From Sedimentitalea xiamensis (lineage in GTDB: Bacteria; Pseudomonadota; Alphaproteobacteria; Rhodobacterales; Rhodobacteraceae): a DNA stretch of 34,599 nt. The translations under genes were made by a program, and so were the position numbers. This document shows, in pieces, positions 24,387 through 34,102 of the stretch (within the stretch, counting starts at the first letter, position 1; each line of letters opens with the position of its first letter). Below the pieces are notes generated by a model. The model was given only the letters and a program-made list of their open reading frames with translations. It was not told the origin of the DNA and did no database searches. The stretch covers positions 1-34,599 of the forward strand of contig NZ_JASNJE010000040.1 in NCBI RefSeq assembly GCF_030164465.1, written 5' to 3'.

Positions 24387-24509
24387 CCGGTTCCGGATCG
24401 TTCGGCCGGGCCTCGTTCCGGCGGGACGGGCGCGCGGGCGCGGCAAAACGGACCTTGCCCAGGCTGGTCAAATCCCGGATAAACGACGCGTCGATCACAG
24501 GAGCCTTTC

Positions 24510-24821
24510 ATGCGTGCCCGTATCTATCAGCCTGCCCGCACCGCGATGTCGTCGGGCACTGCAAAAACCAGAACCTGGATTCTGGACTACGCGCCGAGCA
24601 GCGCGCGGGAAGTGGACCCGCTGATGGGCTGGACCTCCTCCGATGACATGCAGAGCCAGGTGCGCCTGCGGTTCGCCACCAAGGAGGCGGCGCTGGAATA
24701 CGCACAGGCCCACGGCATCGAGGCCGACGTTTTCGAACCGAAGAAGCGCAAGCCCAACGTGCGCCCCGGCGGCTACGGTGACAATTTCGCCACCAACCGA
24801 CGCGGAGTCTGGACCCATTGA
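24510..24821 (+). CDS. ETC complex I subunit, NDUFS4-like
   Basis: The 103-residue protein matches the conserved family of alphaproteobacterial and mitochondrial NDUFS4 (18-kDa/AQDQ) subunits. It has [42 protein letters not shown] and a C-terminal [20 protein letters not shown], with [15 protein letters not shown] between them. It is an accessory subunit that stabilises the NADH-dehydrogenase arm of respiratory complex I at the inner membrane. A strong AGGAG lies eight bases before the ATG. Its stop overlaps the start of the GNAT gene, so the two are coupled. Confidence 0.93.
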
Positions 24822-25279
24822 CAAGCTCCTGTATCGAGGCCGTGTCGCCTGACGCGCCCGACGTGCGCGCGTTGCTGGACCGGCACCTGGCGCTGATGCA
24901 GGCGCAGACGCCACCGGAAAGCTGTCACGCCCTGCCGTCGGAGGCGTTGAAATCGGACGATATCGTGCTGTTCGGACTGCGCGAAAACGGCACGTTGCAA
25001 GGTGTCGGTGCACTGAAACGGTATGTCGATTACGGTGAGATCAAATCGATGCACACCTTCGCCGAATTGCGCGGCCGGGGCGTTGCCCGCAAGGTGCTGG
25101 GCGCGTTGCTCGCAGAGGCCCGCGCGGCAGGTCTGCGGCGGGTGTTTCTGGAAACCGGCTCCGGCCCGGAACATGCCGCCGCCCGGGCGCTTTACGCCAG
25201 CGCGGGTTTCGTCACCTGCGGACCTTTCGGGGACTATTCCGACGACCCGCTGAGCCATTTCATGACTTTGACGCTCTGA
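24818..25279 (+). CDS. GNAT family N-acetyltransferase
   Basis: The 153-residue protein has the GNAT acetyl-CoA core: [31 protein letters not shown] (motif A with the RGRGVA pyrophosphate loop), [32 protein letters not shown] (motif B). It acetylates an amine of an unknown substrate; the best guess from this subtype is a small molecule or peptide N-terminus. The start is a TTG at 24818 that overlaps the TGA of the preceding gene (TTGA). A GTG a few codons later is an alternative. Confidence 0.85.
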
Positions 25280-26133: not shown

Positions 26134-26580
26134 TCAGTCATAGGCGATGCCTGCGTTGCCGAACATGTTCATCGTCTGGGTCAGGAAATGCTCGTAGTCA
26201 TCTGCCGAGACATTGAAGCCACCGTTGGCCGAGTTGTCGCCGGCCTTGAGTTGGCGCAACATATCCATCACCTTCCAGTCACATTCCTTCACGACGATGG
26301 GCAGCACGCGGGCATTTCCGGCGGCATGGCGTTCAGGCACCCGCTTCATCTCGCGCTCGACACAGCAGTCGGATGCGATGAAATCAGGGCTTGCCGCGAG
26401 CAGGAATAGATCGGCTGCTTCCATTTTCCGTTCAATATCGGCGTCCAGTTCACTACCAGCCAGAATGTCGCGGTCGTAGAAAGTTTCTATATGCCCGTCC
26501 TGGATTAGGTTCTTGAGGTGGTCGTGCAGGCGCTCCAGTGCAGCGTTGTCGTGATGTGAATAGGAGATGAATGCTCGCAT
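26134..26580 (-). CDS. Stand-alone TIR domain protein
   Basis: The 148-residue protein is a single TIR domain. Box 1 is MRAFISYSHHD at the N-terminus; FYDRDILAGSELDADIERKMEAADLFLLAASPDFIASDCCVERE follows. Glu75 or Glu77 in CVERE is the candidate catalytic glutamate of NADase TIRs. The C-terminus reads LPIVVKECDWKVMDMLRQLKA and a short acidic tail. Bacterial TIR proteins in defence (Thoeris ThsB and others) make or consume NAD-derived signals and usually have a partner; none is visible nearby. It sits between integrase and IS remnants, so it may be cargo of a decayed island. The ATG at 26580 fits the fold boundary. Confidence 0.8.
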   Translation of the reverse strand: MRAFISYSHHDNAALERLHDHLKNLIQDGHIETFYDRDILAGSELDADIERKMEAADLFLLAASPDFIASDCCVEREMKRVPERHAAGNARVLPIVVKECDWKVMDMLRQLKAGDNSANGGFNVSADDYEHFLTQTMNMFGNAGIAYD

Positions 26581-27069
26581 GAGGAGCCCGCTCGACCCTG
26601 TATGTTGCCCGTTTGTTCTGGCGTCTGGAGTGGCATCGAAGCGCAGCGACCGGTTGGCCCGTGCAGGGCGTGTCAAAGACCGCGGCTCTGGACGATTGCC
26701 CCTACGTAGGTAGGGCTACAACCGAATTATCCGATGAGCGTCAAGCAAAGCCGCGTCGTCGTCCTCGCGAGTCCGTGTCCCGTGTTTTCGGCACTGTTCG
26801 CACGTAAAGGTAGATTCGTCTGCAAGCCACGCTTGGGCGCGCTCGGGATACCTCGAAGGGAATGACGGTACTGAGCGCCGCTCCATAGCAAGCCTGATTT
26901 TATCGCCAGCTACGCCAAATTCGGCACCAGCAATCACAGAGGCCCCCGAATGACTTTCCCCAGCCGCAGCTAAATGCAGACGCCGCCTAAAGCTTTCCGC
27001 CCGGAACCTGAATCGCAGGGATTCCCATGTGGCTGATTTTGTGGATCCTCGTTTTCGGGAGGATGGATC
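26581..27069. other. Gene-poor stretch between the TIR gene and the IS630 remnant
   Basis: The only candidate is a 73-codon minus-strand frame at 26716-26937 (GTG start). It ends with a lone CEQC pair and has no recognisable domain; I do not consider it supported. The remainder shows no gene, RNA or repeat I can identify, and looks like degraded accessory DNA. Confidence 0.4.
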
Positions 27070-27814: not shown

Positions 27815-27856
27815 GGCCCCTTAGCTCAACTGGATAGAGCAGTCGACTTCTAATCG
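27815..27856 (+). pseudogene. 5' half of a tRNA-Arg(TCT) gene, split by the integrative element
   Basis: Acceptor strand GGCCCCT, TA, a complete D-arm (GCTC-AACTGGATA-GAGC), anticodon stem GTCGA and loop CTTCTAA are intact. After TCG the sequence leaves the tRNA. The missing part (TCGAC stem, variable loop, T-arm, acceptor AGGGGTC and discriminator G) is found at 34062-34102. Joining 27815-27856 to 34071-34102 gives 74 bases with every stem paired, the same length as the intact tRNA inside the element without its CCA. Confidence 0.85.
27848..27856. repeat. Left attachment core
   Basis: TTCTAATCG is identical to 34062-34070. The wider context CGA-yTTCTAA-TCG is conserved on both sides with a C/T difference before and a G/A difference after the core. 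The CGA/TCG arms are the anticodon stem and form the small inverted repeat expected of recombinase core sites. Confidence 0.8.
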
Positions 27857-27916
27857 GCGGGTCTGGGGCCGAAAAGAGGAGAAGAAACAGGCGGGTAGGT
27901 TTTTCGGCGCGCGTTG

Positions 27917-27937
27917 CGAACCGTTTTCCGAACCGTT
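27917..27937 (+). promoter_or_regulatory. Left arm-type repeats (two CGAACCGTT, 12-base spacing)
   Basis: CGAACCGTT occurs at 27917-27925 and 27929-27937, about 60 to 80 bases inside the left core. Near-identical copies stand inside the right end (33910-33952) in the same orientation. The arrangement suits integrase arm-binding sites. They also lie just upstream of the intact tRNA and may affect its promoter. Confidence 0.6.
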
Positions 27938-27950
27938 ATCACGGCGTCAC

Positions 27951-28027
27951 GGCCCCGTAGCTCAACTGGATAGAGCAAGCGCCTTCTAAGCGCTAGGTTC
28001 CGGGTTCAAGTCCTGGCGGGGTCGCCA
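27951..28027 (+). tRNA. tRNA-Arg (anticodon TCT), intact, carried by the element
   Basis: All arms fold: acceptor GGCCCCG/CGGGGTC with one G-T pair, D-stem GCTC/GAGC, anticodon stem AGCGC/GCGCT, loop CTTCTAA (TCT at 27985-27987), T-stem CCGGG/CCTGG, T-loop TTCAAGT, discriminator G and encoded CCA. It reads AGA codons. Compared with the split host tRNA the D-arm, loop, variable region and most of the acceptor are identical. The anticodon stem and lower T-stem differ by paired, compensating changes, so the core TTCTAATCG has become TTCTAAGCG. It lies 95 bases inside the element. Confidence 0.95.
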
Positions 28028-28096
28028 ACTCCTCCCTCGCATCTCCCTGAGAATCATGCACTATAGCTCCCGGCTGTGTTGTCGGAGGGCGTTGCG

Positions 28097-29152
28097 TTGG
28101 GCACGGGAACGGATGCAAGGGACAGGGTAATTGCCCTGCTGGACGGGTTCCTCACGGACCCTCAGTCCGGCGAGCAGGCGATTGCCGACGCCCGGGCCGC
28201 CCTCCCGGAACAGGCGGTGGCCGACCTTGATGCCGCCCTCGCCCACAGATACCTCAGCTACCGCGACGGGATAATGATCCAGCTCGCCTATGGCCTTGAG
28301 GTGCCCGAGGCGGACCTGACCCAGAGGCAGGAAGGCGCGCGCGGCTTCGCGGCGGACCTCGGCACGTTCCTCGCCCAGCGGCACATCTCCGGGGTCAAGG
28401 ACGCCTACCAGAACATAGGCAAGAACAACGTGTCGCTCATGCGTGGGAACGTTCCACGCTTTGACGCCTTCCTGCACTGGGCGACGGGTGCCACCCAAGC
28501 GGAGCGCGAGGCTGCTCTGCGGCTAGCCTGTGCGGCGGTCGCAGCCACGGCCCGGCCCGTCCTCCCGATGCCCGAGCTGAACCGGAGTGCGCTGACCTTC
28601 GCCCGGACTGTCGGGCTCCTGTCTGGGCTGCTCGACACCCCTTCCGGTGGGGCATTCGAGCAGTTTGCGGTTGCGGCGCTACTCCACACGCTGGTCGAAA
28701 ACCACGGCGAGGGGCGCGTCCGGGTTGAGACCAAGAATTTGAACGCCTCAGACCGCAGCGCCTTTGTCGCGGGTGACGTGCAGGTGGCCTCGGGCAGCCG
28801 CGTCCTTGAGGCATTTGAAGTCACCGCCAACGACTGGCGCACTAAGCTCGCGGGCGCGTCCAAGACCATCCGCGACAACGACCTGTCCCGGCTCCACATC
28901 GTCGCAGCCCGGCCCGAGGGGGAGCGCGCTGCCGTGGGCGTGGCGCTGCGGGAACTGGCGGAGGACGTGTCGGTGCTAGACGCCCGGCAGGTTGTGGAGG
29001 TCCTTGCGGCTGTCCTGACCCGCCCTCAGAGGGCCGATGCGCTGACGCGGCTGTATGAATACCTTGACCGCTACCAGCCCGACACCGGGCGGGTGAACCA
29101 CCTCGTTGAGCGCCTGCGCGAGGAGGACCTAGTGGAGCGCGCGGGCGACTGA
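28097..29152 (+). CDS. Type II restriction endonuclease, SacI-like
   Basis: The product (351 residues) has an alpha-helical N-terminal half with ISGVKDAYQNIGKNNVSLMRGN. Its central segment FEQFAVAALLHTLVE, then RVRVETKNLNASDRSAFVAGDVQV and VLEAFEVTANDWRTKL, has the Glu-x-Lys and acidic spacing of a PD-(D/E)xK nuclease. I associate these phrases with the SacI endonuclease family (target GAGCTC), from memory rather than a search. The adjoining cytosine-5 methyltransferase, with which it overlaps tail to tail by 24 bases, strongly supports a restriction role. I start at TTG 28097, which has GGAGG eight bases upstream; a GTG at 28076 is also in frame. Confidence 0.65.
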   Translation: MGTGTDARDRVIALLDGFLTDPQSGEQAIADARAALPEQAVADLDAALAHRYLSYRDGIMIQLAYGLEVPEADLTQRQEGARGFAADLGTFLAQRHISGVKDAYQNIGKNNVSLMRGNVPRFDAFLHWATGATQAEREAALRLACAAVAATARPVLPMPELNRSALTFARTVGLLSGLLDTPSGGAFEQFAVAALLHTLVENHGEGRVRVETKNLNASDRSAFVAGDVQVASGSRVLEAFEVTANDWRTKLAGASKTIRDNDLSRLHIVAARPEGERAAVGVALRELAEDVSVLDARQVVEVLAAVLTRPQRADALTRLYEYLDRYQPDTGRVNHLVERLREEDLVERAGD

Positions 29153-30109
29153 GGCCCCCACGACCTCGGCCAGCCGGGGCGGGACTGCGTTGCCGATCTG
29201 TGAATACTGCGAGCTGCGCGAGCCCTCGAACACCATCTCAGCAGGGAATGACTGGAGCAACGCGGACTCAAGGACCGTGAGCCGCCGTCCGCCCTCAAGT
29301 GTCCCCTGCCTCGGCCTGCCGCCGTCCCAGAGGTGCTTGTGGTAGGGCGGAACCGCGTCCAGCTCGTCAATGAAGTGTGTCTTGTTGCCCCCGGCGGAGG
29401 CAAGGATGGTGGGCGCTGGCTGGTCTAGGTTGATTGCCCGCCCGCCGCCATTGAAGAGCTGCCCGGCGTAGGGGCTCGGGCGCAGGTCCGGCTTCTTGGC
29501 GTAGACAACCTTGGATGGGTTCGGGGTGCCCCGGACCTCGCCCCGCCGGATCACGGAACCGGCTGTGGCGTAGCGCCCCGGGCGGTGAGTGGGTGCCGGG
29601 AAGTCCACGGCCCCCTTGAGGAAGCCAATCACCATCACCCGGAGCCGCTTCTGCGGCACCCCGTAGTCAGCGGCGTTCACGATCCGGGGAGGGAGGACAG
29701 TGTAGCGCTCGTCAATGGTCGCAAGGACGCTGTCGAAGTATTCCCGGTTGCGTGGCGCGAGGAGGCCCGCGACGTTCTCCATCAGGAACGCCCGGGGCAT
29801 CGCCTCGTTCACGGCGCGCACGAACTCCGGGAGCATGTCGCGCACATCGTCTGCCGCAAGGCGCTTGCCACCATTCGAGAACGGCTGGCAGGGGGGGCCG
29901 CCTGCGATCAGGTCAACGCCGCGCCACTGCCGGAAGTCCACCTCAGTCACTGACTGCTCCAAGACCTCAACGCCGGGAAAGTTGCGGCGGTAGGTTGCGC
30001 AGGCGTCACGGTTCAGGTCTAGGCCCAGCACAGGGCGGAACCCAGCGCGCTCAAGCCCAAGGCTCAGCCCACCGGCCCCCGAAAACAGGTCTATGCTGGT
30101 CAGCTCCAA
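29129..30109 (-). CDS. DNA (cytosine-5-)-methyltransferase of a type II R-M system
   Basis: The 326-residue protein has the C5-methyltransferase motifs in order: I (DLFSGAGGLSLGLERAGF), IV with catalytic Cys74 (GGPPCQPFSNGGKR), VI (MENVAGL, Glu111), VIII (QKRLRVMVIGF), IX (RAINLDQPAPTI) and X (YSQIGNAVPPRLAEVVG). It protects DNA from the convergent endonuclease. The target-recognition region between VIII and IX is about 85 residues. I start at TTG 30109, which has GGGAGG six bases upstream and gives the usual short lead before motif I; an ATG at 30139 without a ribosome site is the alternative. Confidence 0.92.
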   Translation of the reverse strand: MELTSIDLFSGAGGLSLGLERAGFRPVLGLDLNRDACATYRRNFPGVEVLEQSVTEVDFRQWRGVDLIAGGPPCQPFSNGGKRLAADDVRDMLPEFVRAVNEAMPRAFLMENVAGLLAPRNREYFDSVLATIDERYTVLPPRIVNAADYGVPQKRLRVMVIGFLKGAVDFPAPTHRPGRYATAGSVIRRGEVRGTPNPSKVVYAKKPDLRPSPYAGQLFNGGGRAINLDQPAPTILASAGGNKTHFIDELDAVPPYHKHLWDGGRPRQGTLEGGRRLTVLESALLQSFPAEMVFEGSRSSQYSQIGNAVPPRLAEVVGASVARALH

Positions 30110-30186
30110 GTGATCCTCCCGTGAACATTCCGCGAACATATAGCGCAGGGGTTAAACCCCCGTCAACGTGACCCTAGCGCCACAGG

Positions 30187-31026
30187 TCAGCCGATGCGAC
30201 CTGTTTCTTGCGGTGATTCTGCCCTGTCACACAAGGTGTTGCGCCCGCGCCTCGCCCTCCCGTGATCGGTCTTTCGCCAGTGGTGGGGTACCCGGGCAAG
30301 GTCCCAGAGGGCGAGGAGGAGCCCTGCCCAGAGGGCGAGCCAGTAGGCGGGCAGCAGGAGGACCAGCCACAGCGGGAGGCCAGCCCGGAGGGCGGCGGCG
30401 GTGTGGAGGGCGAGCGCGGTGGCGTATCCCGCCAGCAGGAGGGCCGCGAGGCTCCCGGACAGGTCCCCGCCCAGCAGGACAGCAAGGCCCAGCGGGTGCG
30501 CCGCGATGCACAGCAGGGACGCGGGGAGCTGCGCCAGCAGGGCGGCGGTAGCGGCTGGCCCGAGGTCGCGGGCGGCGCGGCGCGGCTCCCGGGCGTGGAC
30601 GATGGTGGTCACGGCGAAGCCCTTGAGCCACCGGGCGCGCTGGCGCAGCCAAGCGAGTGCAGTGACGGGGGCCTCCTCCCATGTCGTGCTGTCGATGGTG
30701 GAGGAGCGCCAGCCCAGCCGGGCGAGCCGCACCCCCAAGTCCGCGTCCTCGGTGACGTTGTGGGCATCCCAGCCCCCGGCGGCGCGCAGGGCGTCCGCCC
30801 GGAACCAGTTGCTTGTCCCGCCCAAGAGGAAGGGCAGCCCGAGGCGGGCGAGCGCGGGCAGCACCAGCCCGAACAGCGCCGCATACTCAAGTGCCCAGAG
30901 GCGGGCCACGAGGGGCGAGCCCGGCCCGGCGTGGTCGCACCCGAGGCGGGCCTGCACCACGGCAAGGCGGGGGGCGGAGGCGAGGGCAGCGGCGGCAAGC
31001 CGCGCCTGTTGCGGCTCGGGCCGGTC
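30187..31026 (-). pseudogene. 5'-truncated membrane glycosyltransferase (GT2) fragment
   Basis: The frame reads DRPEPQQARLAAAALASAPRL, ALEYAALFGLVLPALARLGL, PFLLGGTSNWFRADALRAAGGWD, TEDADLGVRLARLGW, and the processive-type QRARWLKGF. Three to four hydrophobic segments and a HHWRKTDHG end follow. This is the second half of a cellulose-synthase-like GT2 enzyme. The nucleotide-sugar-binding N-terminus and the first aspartate motif are missing; homology begins at the residue after the usual DAED. Upstream the frame runs into the primase gene out of phase, so there is no start of its own. It appears to be a host-type gene fragment captured in the element. Confidence 0.75.
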
Positions 31027-32179
31027 CGCCGTGCAGGACCGGCCCGGGCCTTGGCTGCGCCTCAAGAGCTCGGGCGATCTGGCGGTCAGCATACCTGTCC
31101 GCGCCCTTCTGTTCGCGGACGTGCGCGCTGATTGCAAGGTCCGGGTCAAGGATCACCGCCTTCATCACCGCCTCGGGCAGGTCCGCCCGGACCATCTCGC
31201 ACAGGACATGGAACACGAGGTCTGACCTGTCCGCCCACCGGCCCGGCTCGTCAGGGTCCTCACCGTTGACGATCAGCGCCTTCACCCGGTCGGGCAGGTC
31301 GAGCGCCTCCACGTCAACGTCCGCCGCAGCCGCGAAGCTGCGGTCAGGCGAGGCAGGAGCCGCGCCGCTGGCCGCCCCCTTGGGCGCGGGGAAGTCGTCA
31401 AGGTCATAGCGCCGGTCCCAGTGTGCCTCCACGACGCGGGCGAGCCGGGGCACCCGGCCATCCCTGCGCTTCTTCTCGCTGGGCCAGTTGACCGTCCCGA
31501 CAAGGCGCATCACTCGGTCCACGTTCTGGACGCTGTCCCCCTCCACGGCGGCCTTGATTCCGATGGCGCGGGCCTCCACATCCGCCACCACCTCAGCGCT
31601 GTCCAGCGGGACGCGCTCCCGGAACAGGAAGAAGCCCTGCATCCCGCCGCCGCTGTCCACCACGACGCTGGGGCGGGGAAACGGGAGTGGCTTGCCGTCC
31701 TTTGCCCAGTCAACAAAGAGCTTGGCGATGCGCGCCCGCTCAGGGTCCAGCGGCTCGCGCACCCGGGGGTCCACGTCACAGAACAGCGCCACGGCCTCCG
31801 CCATGTCCGCCTTCTTGGGCTTCTTGCGCACGGGGCCGCGCGTCACGTTGGGCGTGAAGTAGAGGTTCCAGCGCCCGCCGCTGTAGTCGTGGATCCAGCG
31901 CCGCACCGCGTCTGCGGTCGTCAATGTGTGGGTCGGGGTCGGGGCGTCCGGGGCACCGTCCACCTCAATCGCGGTCAGGACCCAAGGCCCGCCGGGACGC
32001 CACGCCTCAAGGAACGCAACCGCCGCCGCCGTGTCAGGCAACAAGTCTTTCTGGTCGGCTCCGGTGGCCGGGCCGGGTATACTCGTGCCATCAGGGTGAT
32101 GATGACGGCTCCTGTCCTCTCCTCCGCCCCCGGCTTCCGTCCCGGAGCTGGGGGCGTCTTTCTTCCTGTCCCCCCTCAT
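30887..32179 (-). CDS. RepB-like primase, C-terminally truncated
   Basis: The frame encodes 430 residues, of which about the first 373 look native: a disordered His/Gly-rich start, then WVLTAIEVDG, GGRWNLYFTPNVTRGPVRKKPKKADMAEAVALFCDVDPR, SVVVDSGGGMQGFFLF, NVDRVMRLVGTVNWPSEKKR and a helical segment ending ADRYADRQIARALE. This matches RepB-type primase domains of plasmids and satellites, with the FCDVD metal-binding acidic pair. The usual C-terminal helicase part is absent. After about 31061 the last 57 residues are an arginine/proline-rich readthrough of the glycosyltransferase fragment. The start overlaps the HTH gene stop (ATGA). Primase activity may survive; autonomous replication is doubtful. 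Confidence 0.75.
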   Translation of the reverse strand: MRGDRKKDAPSSGTEAGGGGEDRSRHHHPDGTSIPGPATGADQKDLLPDTAAAVAFLEAWRPGGPWVLTAIEVDGAPDAPTPTHTLTTADAVRRWIHDYSGGRWNLYFTPNVTRGPVRKKPKKADMAEAVALFCDVDPRVREPLDPERARIAKLFVDWAKDGKPLPFPRPSVVVDSGGGMQGFFLFRERVPLDSAEVVADVEARAIGIKAAVEGDSVQNVDRVMRLVGTVNWPSEKKRRDGRVPRLARVVEAHWDRRYDLDDFPAPKGAASGAAPASPDRSFAAAADVDVEALDLPDRVKALIVNGEDPDEPGRWADRSDLVFHVLCEMVRADLPEAVMKAVILDPDLAISAHVREQKGADRYADRQIARALEAQPRPGPVLHGGPARAATGAACRRCPRLRPPPCRGAGPPRVRPRRAGLAPRGPPLGT

Positions 32180-32427
32180 TCGCCTGCCTCCATCCACGCG
32201 CGCACGTCATCGGCGCGGTATCGGACGCTGTGGCCCACCTTCAGGAAGGGCGGTCCCTGGCGCTTGGCGCGGTATGCCTCAAGCGACTTGGTTGAGAAGC
32301 CCGTCATCTGGGCCACCTGGTCGGCGGTCAGGTATTCAGGGGTCATGGGGAGCCGCCCACGGGGCAGCTCGCGCAGGAGGCGCTCAGCGAGGGCCTCCGC
32401 AATGGCGTCAATGGTCTGTTGGTCCAC
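32176..32427 (-). CDS. AlpA-like/HTH_17 DNA-binding protein (regulator or excisionase)
   Basis: The 83-residue protein has a short helical N-terminus and then a MerR-type winged helix-turn-helix: EYLTADQVAQMTGFSTKSLEAYRAKRQGPPFLKVGHSVRYRADDVRAWMEAGE. This is the AlpA/excisionase pattern next to integrases in P4-like islands, where it controls int expression and bends DNA for excision. The start is a GTG at 32427 with GGTGA six bases upstream. It is coupled to the primase gene by a 4-base overlap. The 253 bases between it and int hold no gene; they contain two CCTTGG copies and may be the control region of the operon. Confidence 0.82.
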   Translation of the reverse strand: MDQQTIDAIAEALAERLLRELPRGRLPMTPEYLTADQVAQMTGFSTKSLEAYRAKRQGPPFLKVGHSVRYRADDVRAWMEAGE

Positions 32428-32680
32428 GTCTCGTCACCAGTCCAGACCGCCCTGCTGCGCAGGCGGTCGGTTAGGTGACAGGGCATCGGTGCCGAAGCAC
32501 CCACCGGGTTGCCCCGCGCCCCCCGCATGGGGCGCTCCCCGCGCGCGGCACGTCCCGGTGGGCCGACGCGGTTCCCAACGCCGGGGTTCACCGGCGTCCC
32601 CTGTTTCAGGGTAGTCTCGTGGTCCCTACCTTACCCTTGGCGGCCCGCCTTGGGAAACCCTAATTCCCCCTGCGCAGCCC

Positions 32681-33895
32681 TCAATCCGTTGTTGTGTCGG
32701 GCTCAAGCAGGGCGAGGATCGCAGCCGTCACCCGCTCCTGTTCGGCCAGAAGGGTGTCGAACAGGGCGCGCTCGTGGATGTAGACGCCATCTATCCCCGG
32801 CACGGTGTGGTCGAGAAGCAGGCGCGCGTTCACCCGGTCGATGCCCGTGCGCTGGGCAACGGTGCGGTAGGTGTGGCGGAGGATGTGGCCCGTCTCGGAT
32901 GGCAGCGCCTTCTCCTTCCAGACCTGCGTTGCGATCACCTCGCCCGTCCGGCTGGACCGGGTGGGGAACAGCCACGACGCGCCCGGGAACAGCAGGTCCC
33001 CCGCCGCCATCACGCGGCCCAGCAACTCCACCATGTGCCCAGACAGGGGCAGGTCGAAGGACCGGCCCGACTTCATCCGGGGGATGGAAACGGCGCGGTC
33101 GTCAAGCCGGACCCACTCGCGGCGCAGCGCAACGAGGGTCCCGGGGCGCAGGCCCGAGAGCAGCCCGAGCAGGTGCATGTCGCGCCGGAGCGGGTTGGGC
33201 AGCGCCTGCACCCGCGCCCACCAGTCCGCGAGGTCGTCGGGCATTATGACGCGGTTGCTGGCCCGCTCCTTGTTGAACGTGACCGCCGCGATGGGGTTGC
33301 CCGGCAGGGCGTCCGGGTCATCGACCACCTTGAGCGCAAAGTTGTAGGCGGCGCGGAAGTCGCGCATGGCCTTGTTCGCGGTCGTGGCCCCGTGCCGCTC
33401 GGTTATCCGGCGGTGCTCCTCACGGGCAGCGCTCCGCCGCACCTCGGTTATGGGCGTGTCGGCCCAGTCAGGCAGGTAGCGGGCCAGCCGGTCCATCATG
33501 TCGTCAACGGACCTGTCCACGCAGCCCCGGGCGCGCATGTCCGCGCCATACTCCTCGAACATCCGGCGCACCGTCCACGTGCCCGCGTCATCGGCGGCGT
33601 CGGGCGGCGGGGCGTTGGGGTCGATGCCGCGCTTGATCTGGTCCAGCACCGCGAGCGCCCGGCTGCGGGCCTCGTCAAGGGTCATCTCCTCGGTGCCCCC
33701 GAGGGTGTGGCGGACTGTCTTGACCAGCACCTTGCGCCCGCGCGGCCCCTGCCACAGGTCCCGCTGGACCTTGTAGGACTTGGAGCCCTTGTTCACGGCG
33801 ACGAGGAGCCCCGTCACCTTCGCGTCCCGCACCACGGCGGGCTTCCCCTCGTATGCGAGCGACCTCACCCGCGCCTCCGTCAGCCTCTCTGGCAT
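32681..33895 (-). CDS. int: Tyrosine recombinase (integrase) of the element
   Basis: The 404-residue protein has an arm-binding N-terminus (about 1-65, VRDAKVTGLLVAVNKGSKSYKVQ), a core-binding domain (about 105-200) and a catalytic domain with every active-site residue: Arg250 (LLSGLRPGT), Lys275 (MKSGRSF), His337 and Arg340 (HILRHTYR), His363 (LLLDHT) and the nucleophile Tyr372 (GVYIH). It cuts and joins the attachment cores to insert and excise the element. The ATG at 33895 has GGAGGT six bases upstream. It is transcribed inward from the right end, with three CGAACCG repeats lying between it and the right core. Confidence 0.93.
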   Translation of the reverse strand: MPERLTEARVRSLAYEGKPAVVRDAKVTGLLVAVNKGSKSYKVQRDLWQGPRGRKVLVKTVRHTLGGTEEMTLDEARSRALAVLDQIKRGIDPNAPPPDAADDAGTWTVRRMFEEYGADMRARGCVDRSVDDMMDRLARYLPDWADTPITEVRRSAAREEHRRITERHGATTANKAMRDFRAAYNFALKVVDDPDALPGNPIAAVTFNKERASNRVIMPDDLADWWARVQALPNPLRRDMHLLGLLSGLRPGTLVALRREWVRLDDRAVSIPRMKSGRSFDLPLSGHMVELLGRVMAAGDLLFPGASWLFPTRSSRTGEVIATQVWKEKALPSETGHILRHTYRTVAQRTGIDRVNARLLLDHTVPGIDGVYIHERALFDTLLAEQERVTAAILALLEPDTTTD

Positions 33896-33909
33896 CTCCG
33901 CACCTCCTG

Positions 33910-33952
33910 CGAACCGTCTCACTGCCGCTGTCCGAACCGTCTCCGAACCGGG
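33910..33952 (+). promoter_or_regulatory. Right arm-type repeats (three CGAACCG copies)
   Basis: CGAACCGTC stands at 33910-33918 and 33933-33941, and CGAACCGGG at 33944-33952. They share CGAACCG and orientation with the pair near the left end. They also cover the region just upstream of the integrase start codon, so integrase binding could repress its own gene. Confidence 0.6.
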
Positions 33953-34061
33953 AGGGGATCGGGCAGGAGCGGGCAGCTTAGGGGGACGTTACCTCCAAAT
34001 GACTGAAAAAGCTATTGTTTAGAGGTGGCAATAGTGCTAGGCAGGGAGGAGGCGAGCCGAT

Positions 34062-34102
34062 TTCTAATCGACAGGTTGAGGGTTCGAGTCCTTCAGGGGT
34101 CG
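34062..34102 (+). pseudogene. Right core and 3' half of the split tRNA-Arg(TCT)
   Basis: The core TTCTAATCG (34062-34070) continues as AC (stem end), variable AGGTT, T-stem and loop GAGGG-TTCGAGT-CCTTC, acceptor AGGGGTC and discriminator G (34102). These pair fully with the 5' half at 27815-27856. No CCA follows (CGTG instead), unlike the intact tRNA, so the end may have drifted since the split or been altered by a neighbouring insertion. Confidence 0.85.

Follow-up and report, generated by a model that had tools for sequence, protein, structure and literature searches.

The 34,599-nucleotide window analysed here, which is the whole of contig NZ_JASNJE010000040.1 (C34) in the 90-contig, 4.75 Mb draft genome of Sedimentitalea xiamensis, contains a 6,214-base element (core to core) that splits a host tRNA-Arg(TCT) gene at the anticodon loop and carries a complete tRNA-Arg(TCT) just inside its left end. 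The element is very probably an integrative element that uses tRNA-dependent integration, with the replacement tRNA securing survival of a cell whose own gene has been broken. The split gene, the empty site in a relative, the layout common to a family of elements, the matching of broken and carried isoacceptors, and the paired evolution of the carried (cargo) tRNAs are seen directly in the sequences compared.

The two halves of the host gene flank the element (Table 1), as an earlier note on this DNA had claimed. The 9-base core TTCTAATCG occurred only twice in the whole window, once in each half, with a mean expectation of 0.10 copies. Joined across the core, the halves were called as tRNA-Arg(TCT) by ARAGORN, and 21 of 21 stem pairs were formed (G-U pairs counted). 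An uninterrupted gene was present in a genome of the same genus (G003); across 125 bases of the joined flanks, 46 of which precede the tRNA, the two sequences were 87.2% identical. The intact G003 gene encodes no CCA either, and the missing CCA of the window 3′ half is therefore native; decay of this half, as the absent CCA might be read, was ruled out. Host DNA at 24509-24823 aligned just upstream of the split tRNA in genome G178 and approximately 2 kb upstream of it in G442. By this match, the window most likely represents the orthologous tRNA locus, spread by later insertions.

The replacement tRNA encodes CCA and starts 94 bases inside the left end. Its anticodon stem is AGCGC/GCGCT, whereas that of the split gene is GTCGA/TCGAC. 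This difference, described in the earlier note, is not the only one: the two tRNAs differed at 14 of 76 positions, among them some of the T stem and the final pair of the acceptor stem. An RF00005 search of the whole genome gave 42 matches, comprising 41 complete tRNAs and the left half of the split one. Arginine tRNAs typed by ARAGORN were TCT, CCT, CCG, and ACG, and the single TCT tRNA was that of the element. No second tRNA-Arg(TCT) was found in this census of the draft genome, which also missed tRNA-Tyr and so is not exhaustive. Of 24 long reading frames taken as a sample of the genome, 14 contained AGA (21 such codons in total). Because no other AGA reader was found and the sampled frames use this codon, the cell should depend on the element for reading AGA, as had been predicted for a cell with no other such tRNA.

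The same arrangement was found in a family of elements. An integrase search of 394 genomes of the bacterial family gave six matches at 80–100% identity (the S. xiamensis genome included), followed by a gap down to 36%. A scan of GTDB contigs gave 15 integrase loci at 59–90% identity, three of them already in the first set, for 18 genomes in all; nearly all members were in Alphaproteobacteria. The left end was readable in 16 of the 18 genomes, and all 16 shared one layout: a host tRNA-Arg is interrupted in the anticodon loop, its 5′ half runs into element DNA that leaves the gene incomplete, and a complete tRNA-Arg of the same isoacceptor follows. Broken and carried isoacceptors matched in 16 of 16 elements, 12 at TCT and four at CCT. 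The outright breakage of a tRNA and its substitution by a decoding-equivalent copy, first proposed for the window, thus extends to every readable member, and the integrase family was confirmed at tRNA-Arg(TCT) in related genomes. The distance from loop to cargo tRNA was 96–99 bases in 13 elements and 86, 108, and 113 bases in the other three.

Both ends were on one contig in ten elements (the window, G178, G442, G338, G363, Loktanella, P. lutimaris, UBA6141, Aestuariivirga, and L.E.AP.14), and for the remaining six the right end was taken from a different contig of the same genome. In 15 of the 16 cases, joining the halves yielded a tRNA-Arg that carries the expected anticodon. The Limimaricola halves lie on separate contigs, yet a rare acceptor pair matches across them. 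The exception was UBA6141; at this locus (L168) the integrase is split into two frames and the host halves are decayed, so the insertion may be locked in place. Upstream DNA of eight of the 12 TCT elements matched DNA beside an intact tRNA-Arg(TCT) in other genomes, and the CCT loci with an upstream match beside an intact tRNA were those of Aquicoccus, Limimaricola, Marinovum, and G082. No such match was found for the window (placed by the alignments above), G338, G363, or Loktanella. The element-type tRNA was the only TCT tRNA found in all 13 genomes with TCT elements, G173 included; the check is less complete for CCT elements. An integrase tree needed three changes of target, only one of them forced by well-supported branches. 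No relatives of the integrase were found in viral contigs, or in phage records at E 1e-20. Carriage by phages or plasmids was rejected, the single plasmid match being distant (31% identity, at E 1e-30). Among the distant integrases (at most 36% identity), five fetched neighbourhoods (L119–L123) had no tRNA in range.

An alignment of 25 left ends revealed a conserved block between the loop and the cargo tRNA, which in the window reads TTGCGAACCGTTTTCCGAACCGTTATCA. The CGAACCGT repeats in this block and beside the integrase (Table 1) are presumed to be arm-type integrase sites. The block, which has promoter-like spacing directly before the cargo tRNA, is also the presumed promoter of that tRNA. 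The core common to attP and attB measured 5–15 bases in all 16 elements. The element side of attL lacks a T arm and therefore does not rebuild the tRNA at this junction, and the stretch 27815-27871 scored only 30.4 bits with RF00005.

Together these features suggest how the element may work. Recombination by the tyrosine integrase would take place between the short core of attP and the host tRNA-Arg(TCT) gene, in its anticodon loop, and integration would destroy the host tRNA because attP has only about nine bases in common with the gene and no usable 3′ half. The cell would then survive on the element's own complete tRNA, which is of the same isoacceptor and sits next to the presumed P′ arm just within the left end; by its look, the P′ arm repeat may double as the promoter of this tRNA. 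As long as the host halves are intact, the host gene would be re-formed by precise excision. After decay of the halves, as in several relatives, losing the element tRNA should be lethal, and that tRNA would become the host's own. The action of the integrase, the promoter, essentiality, and decay as the route to loci with only the element-type tRNA are what we infer.

Of 25 cargo or element-type tRNAs, 23 formed all 21 stem pairs and the other two formed 20. Among the 15 distinct tRNAs of this set, 11 pairs changed on both sides and 100% of cells were paired. Compared with shuffles that ignore relatedness, the covariation score was 0.523 vs. 0.136 and both-side pair changes numbered 57 cells vs. 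18.3. These patterns indicate selection on the cargo tRNAs for function as tRNAs.

According to the earlier note, the anticodon stem of the replacement tRNA had been recoded so that the element's own integrase could not attack it. A like idea has been published for Rhizobium phage vTRX32-1 (PMC8631192), and the window taken singly agrees with it: of the 10 stem positions, attP shares eight with the attacked stem and four with the cargo stem. Across the family, 13 of 16 cargo stems differ from the attacked host stem. Three of the 16, however, keep it, and mean attP matches were 4.9/10 for attacked stems and 4.4/10 for cargo stems (Wilcoxon p = 0.39 over 16 elements). Attacked stems were as variable as cargo stems; that of Aestuariivirga, AGTGC/GCACT, resembles the supposedly recoded stems, and ATCCC/GGGAT, the cargo stem of three of the four CCT elements, also occurs in the G173 CCT tRNA that lacks a P′ arm. 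Destruction of the core in the cargo tRNA was likewise overstated, as only one position departs from the 9-base core, and the G178 host gene was attacked at CCGCCTTCTAAGCGG, which contains the window cargo's version, TTCTAAGCG. Recoding against self-attack is accordingly an unlikely account of the stem differences. The simplest reading is that cargo tRNAs derive from other host lineages and are exchangeable; G178 and L.E.AP.14 have nearly identical integrases and different cargo tRNAs. At loci L117 and L208, integrases were nearly identical while cargo tRNAs and neighbouring genes differed, and the left-end module seems to have been swapped as a unit.

Three further explanations were weighed against tRNA-dependent integration. 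The element could be an ordinary tRNA island whose attP once rebuilt the tRNA, the rebuilt copy having decayed here thanks to the nearby second tRNA. Rebuilding islands are the rule (Islander, PMC4383910), and the element side of attL at 27857-27880 still resembles the end of an anticodon stem, a variable loop, and an acceptor strand without a T arm (the 30.4-bit match above). Against this, the same non-rebuilding attL occurs in different hosts, most of them with intact host halves, and each of the 16 elements has its matched complete tRNA. A non-rebuilding attL common to these hosts places the loss in attP rather than after integration. Such an island is a possible remote ancestor, but as an explanation of the present state it is very unlikely. 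The carried tRNA might instead serve mainly another purpose, for example codon supply for the element or protection from tRNA-cutting defences, its match to the broken gene being secondary. Such purposes have been proposed for phage tRNAs generally (mentioned in PMC10865867); here the isoacceptor matches the broken gene in every element, those at CCT included, and the tRNA adjoins attP in each, which makes this account highly improbable. Duplications of tRNA genes do occur, and the halves and the complete tRNA could in principle have arisen by chance tandem duplication or rearrangement of the tRNA locus, without any integration. Sixteen loci with near-constant spacing, tied to one integrase family and covering two isoacceptors, together with the empty site in G003, leave this a negligible chance, and the idea is in practice refuted.

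Several points count against tRNA-dependent integration itself. A scan for the sigma-70 consensus found no promoter in the block before the cargo tRNA. Dependence was judged from draft genomes and similarity searches in which weaker hits without a fetched locus were left untyped; the S. xiamensis census has the tRNA-Tyr gap, and the untyped hits include 41 bases in G463 (contig C39, 22730-22770) that resemble the 5′ half of a tRNA-Arg and are perhaps another split tRNA. Two of the 18 integrase-bearing genomes were unreadable: G192, where the contig is cut and attR masked, and Roseovarius (L169), where the contig stops in the integrase. G192 also has an intact TCT tRNA without a P′ arm. Of the six elements whose right end came from a second contig, one belongs to a record under the name Thioalkalivibrio, which is a gammaproteobacterial bin, and may be misbinned. 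Finally, the window copy may be immobile, as it has lost the back of its primase and an adjoining gene module.

Loci with only the element-type tRNA were also found. A search of the 394 genomes for the arm block with at most three mismatches gave hits in 195 genomes, many by chance, and a reversed control pattern likewise hit many genomes. Fourteen hit stretches were hand-picked among the matches listed, and a tRNA-Arg stood beside the block in seven of them. With G041 and G465 added from other scans, there were at least nine further loci. The 5′ half was intact in two of the nine (G173 and G082) and decayed in seven: G041, G381, G443, G446, and G465 (TCT), and G017 and G157 (CCT). In the fetched DNA of these seven loci, which was short for some, no element genes were recognised apart from the tRNA read as protein and a methyltransferase match at 24% identity approximately 6 kb downstream in G017. 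The element-type tRNA was the only one of its isoacceptor found in all seven genomes (with a TCT tRNA as the query). The left end of the CCT element of Roseovarius G465 was not found.

None of the seven decayed loci kept the anticodon-loop sequence in the 5′ half. Identity of the host 5′ half was 47–75% in decayed loci, compared with a median of 92% and a lowest value of 69% in intact elements, so that the ranges overlap. The 45 bases before the tRNA were 82–94% like their best match in five of the seven loci, with 0.59 in G017 and 0.44 in G041; in intact elements the median was 0.89 and the lowest value 0.63. Upstream bases that are kept while the host half decays would fit a promoter role of the block. 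Judged by its upstream DNA, G443 is at the native locus. Downstream DNA of G157 matches DNA after intact CCT tRNAs in G004 and G338, and in G338 it is part of a conventional island; G157 was therefore not accepted as a simple tRNA-only locus, as its 3′ half may be the work of an island that arrived later, and it is counted with this caveat. At the G465 locus (L212), visual inspection of the translated DNA suggests that a further tyrosine integrase ends just downstream.

We read the seven loci as domesticated replacement tRNAs. Slow decay of the host halves appears the likeliest route, although insertion elsewhere is possible for loci without a flank match. On balance it seems probable that these elements drive tRNA turnover: native halves decay, element genes are lost, and a tRNA from a former parasite, behind a former attachment-site arm, is left as the sole AGA reader or the only tRNA-Arg(CCT), as proposed for the seven loci.

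Comparison with published systems shows that the mechanism is already known. In 2024 the carried tRNA was found by experiment to be needed for tRNA-dependent lysogeny in mycobacteriophages (Guerrero-Bustamante & Hatfull, PMC10865867). As in Fionnbharth, LeBron, Gaia, and the other phages of that report, where the core is 8–17 bp, the elements described here have a tyrosine integrase with arm-type sites and an attB at a tRNA that is not rebuilt, and carry a tRNA of the same isotype. Those phages are temperate, belong to the actinobacteriophages, and target tRNAs for Lys, Ile2, and Leu, whereas the present elements are short, target Arg(TCT) and Arg(CCT), occur nearly all in Alphaproteobacteria, have no clear structural genes, and are accompanied by loci with only the element tRNA. 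Three features of tRNA-dependent integration were found here, namely a short core without a rebuilt tRNA, a complete carried tRNA of the same isotype, and, most fully checked for the TCT elements, a broken tRNA with no other of its kind found in the draft genomes. In its strict sense, tRNA-dependent lysogeny concerns a temperate phage, and the structural-gene and viral-record scans gave no sign of one apart from a weak terminase-small-subunit match in G178.

Closer by host are Rhizobium leguminosarum phage vTRX32-1, which breaks a tRNA-Leu and carries a complete replacement whose lack of the core was suggested to prevent super-integration (PMC8631192), and two Lo5R7ANS-like prophages of Sinorhizobium meliloti with a replacement for a broken tRNA-Leu, for which host tRNA substitution was suggested (PMC11476347). 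These share with the present family an alphaproteobacterial host and a broken tRNA with its replacement, but are whole phages at tRNA-Leu; moreover, the tRNA carried by vTRX32-1 lacks the core, which some cargo tRNAs here keep. Other prophages rebuild the tRNA (PMC12429752). Tycheposons are tyrosine-recombinase elements bordered by a tRNA (PMC10872708). Classical islands at the anticodon-loop subsite (Islander, PMC4383910) likewise have a tyrosine integrase, an anticodon-loop crossover, and a tRNA fragment at the far end, but rebuild the gene at the junction, unlike the attL described here.

No earlier description of this element family was found among the papers listed on replacement-tRNA elements, satellites, tRNA-dependent lysogeny, and tRNA replacement by mobile DNA, most subscription papers lying outside the coverage. 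The element class, the two arginine targets, the family, and the tRNA-only loci appear to be new. They extend tRNA-dependent integration from phages to short, defence-carrying elements, to another phylum, and to two arginine targets within one integrase family. An essential gene can thereby pass to a mobile element, and the series from fresh split to tRNA-only locus lets the onset of dependence be timed. Methods of island mapping that look for a rebuilt tRNA at the junction may put elements of this type in the wrong place.

The gene content of the window element is given in Table 1. Compared with the 14.3-kb G178 element, approximately 8 kb is absent from the window copy at the junction 31030-31035. 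The deletion removed the back of the primase and the adjoining gene module, and also cut the glycosyltransferase frame; the primase/helicase has 769–843 amino acids in all seven full-size relatives (12–14 kb). The integrase probably starts at 33895. Additional genes of the G178 element encode a serine recombinase, a DUF3489-like protein, and a protein with a weak terminase-small-subunit match, and homologues were present in several others. No structural genes were matched in five proteins of the window element (the glycosyltransferase frame left out) or in 15 of 16 predicted G178 proteins, apart from the terminase-small-subunit match (E 1.3e-7); elements of other genomes were scanned less fully. 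The packaging gene in G178 thus has a weak match only, two of three scanned homologues match, and the window copy is deleted for part of this set. The integrase, AlpA-like regulator, primase/helicase, and weak terminase-small-subunit match of the full-size relatives are, we presume, the kind of gene content seen in phage-inducible chromosomal islands (PICI) and P4-like phage satellites. We know of no helper phage for these elements.

Table 1. Coordinates of features in the 34,599-nucleotide window.
Feature	Position	Strand	Basis or remark
Host DNA homologous to DNA upstream of the split tRNA in G178 and G442	24509-24823		Alignment
5′ half of host tRNA-Arg(TCT), attL, 9-base core at its end	27815-27856	+	Rejoins with 34062-34102; gene intact in G003
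Core TTCTAATCG, left copy	27848-27856	+	Sequence search of window
attL element side (attP right): remainder of an anticodon-stem end and variable loop as in a tRNA, followed by GGGGCCG; T arm absent	27857-27880	+	Alignment of 25 loci
TTGCGAACCGTTTTCCGAACCGTTATCA, presumed P′ arm and presumed cargo tRNA promoter	27914-27941	+	CGAACCGT repeats at 27917 and 27929; role inferred
Complete replacement tRNA-Arg(TCT), CCA encoded	27951-28027	+	ARAGORN; sole tRNA it reports in window
Type II restriction endonuclease-like gene	28076-29152	+	PDLC03410, E 5.7e-18; homologue in G178
C5 cytosine DNA methyltransferase	29129-30139	-	PF00145, E 8.4e-61
Glycosyltransferase family 2 reading frame, cut by internal deletion	30187-31149	-	PF13632; G178 alignment breaks at 31030/31035
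Primase/helicase gene, front part, cut by same internal deletion	30887-32197	-	Comparison with relatives
AlpA-type helix-turn-helix, excisionase-like	32176-32427	-	PF12728, phrog_66
Tyrosine integrase with arm-type DNA-binding domain, full length	32681-33922	-	PF13356, PF00589, phrog_1; relatives
Presumed P arm	33910-33940	+	CGAACCGT repeats at 33910-33917 and 33933-33940, beside integrase
attR element side (attP left), short stretch before core, anticodon-stem-like CCGAT	34055-34061	+	Junction comparison
Core and 3′ half of host tRNA-Arg(TCT), attR	34062-34102	+	Core copy 34062-34070; rejoins with 5′ half

Restriction or DNA-methylation genes were among the tRNA-proximal genes in nine of the ten elements with both ends on one contig. 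Both a restriction enzyme and a methyltransferase were present in the window, G178, G442, G363 (methyltransferase assigned by homology to that of the window), Loktanella, and Aestuariivirga; G338 and L.E.AP.14 had a methyltransferase and UBA6141 a restriction enzyme. A scan of three P. lutimaris proteins detected no such gene. Since the genes in this slot just inside the cargo tRNA differ among the nine elements, it has the look of a defence hotspot. Outside the element, window positions 26134-26676 (minus strand) encode a TIR-domain protein like ThsB of Thoeris defence (PADLOC, E 8.7e-33).

A conventional island at a tRNA-Arg(CCT) was found in G338 (L213; contig C1, 479000-494500). It rebuilds the tRNA and leaves an intact gene and a 3′ fragment. 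Similar DNA, with TGAAAAATATG shortly after the tRNA, follows CCT tRNAs or their halves in several genomes (L213, L210, L160, L250, and L079).

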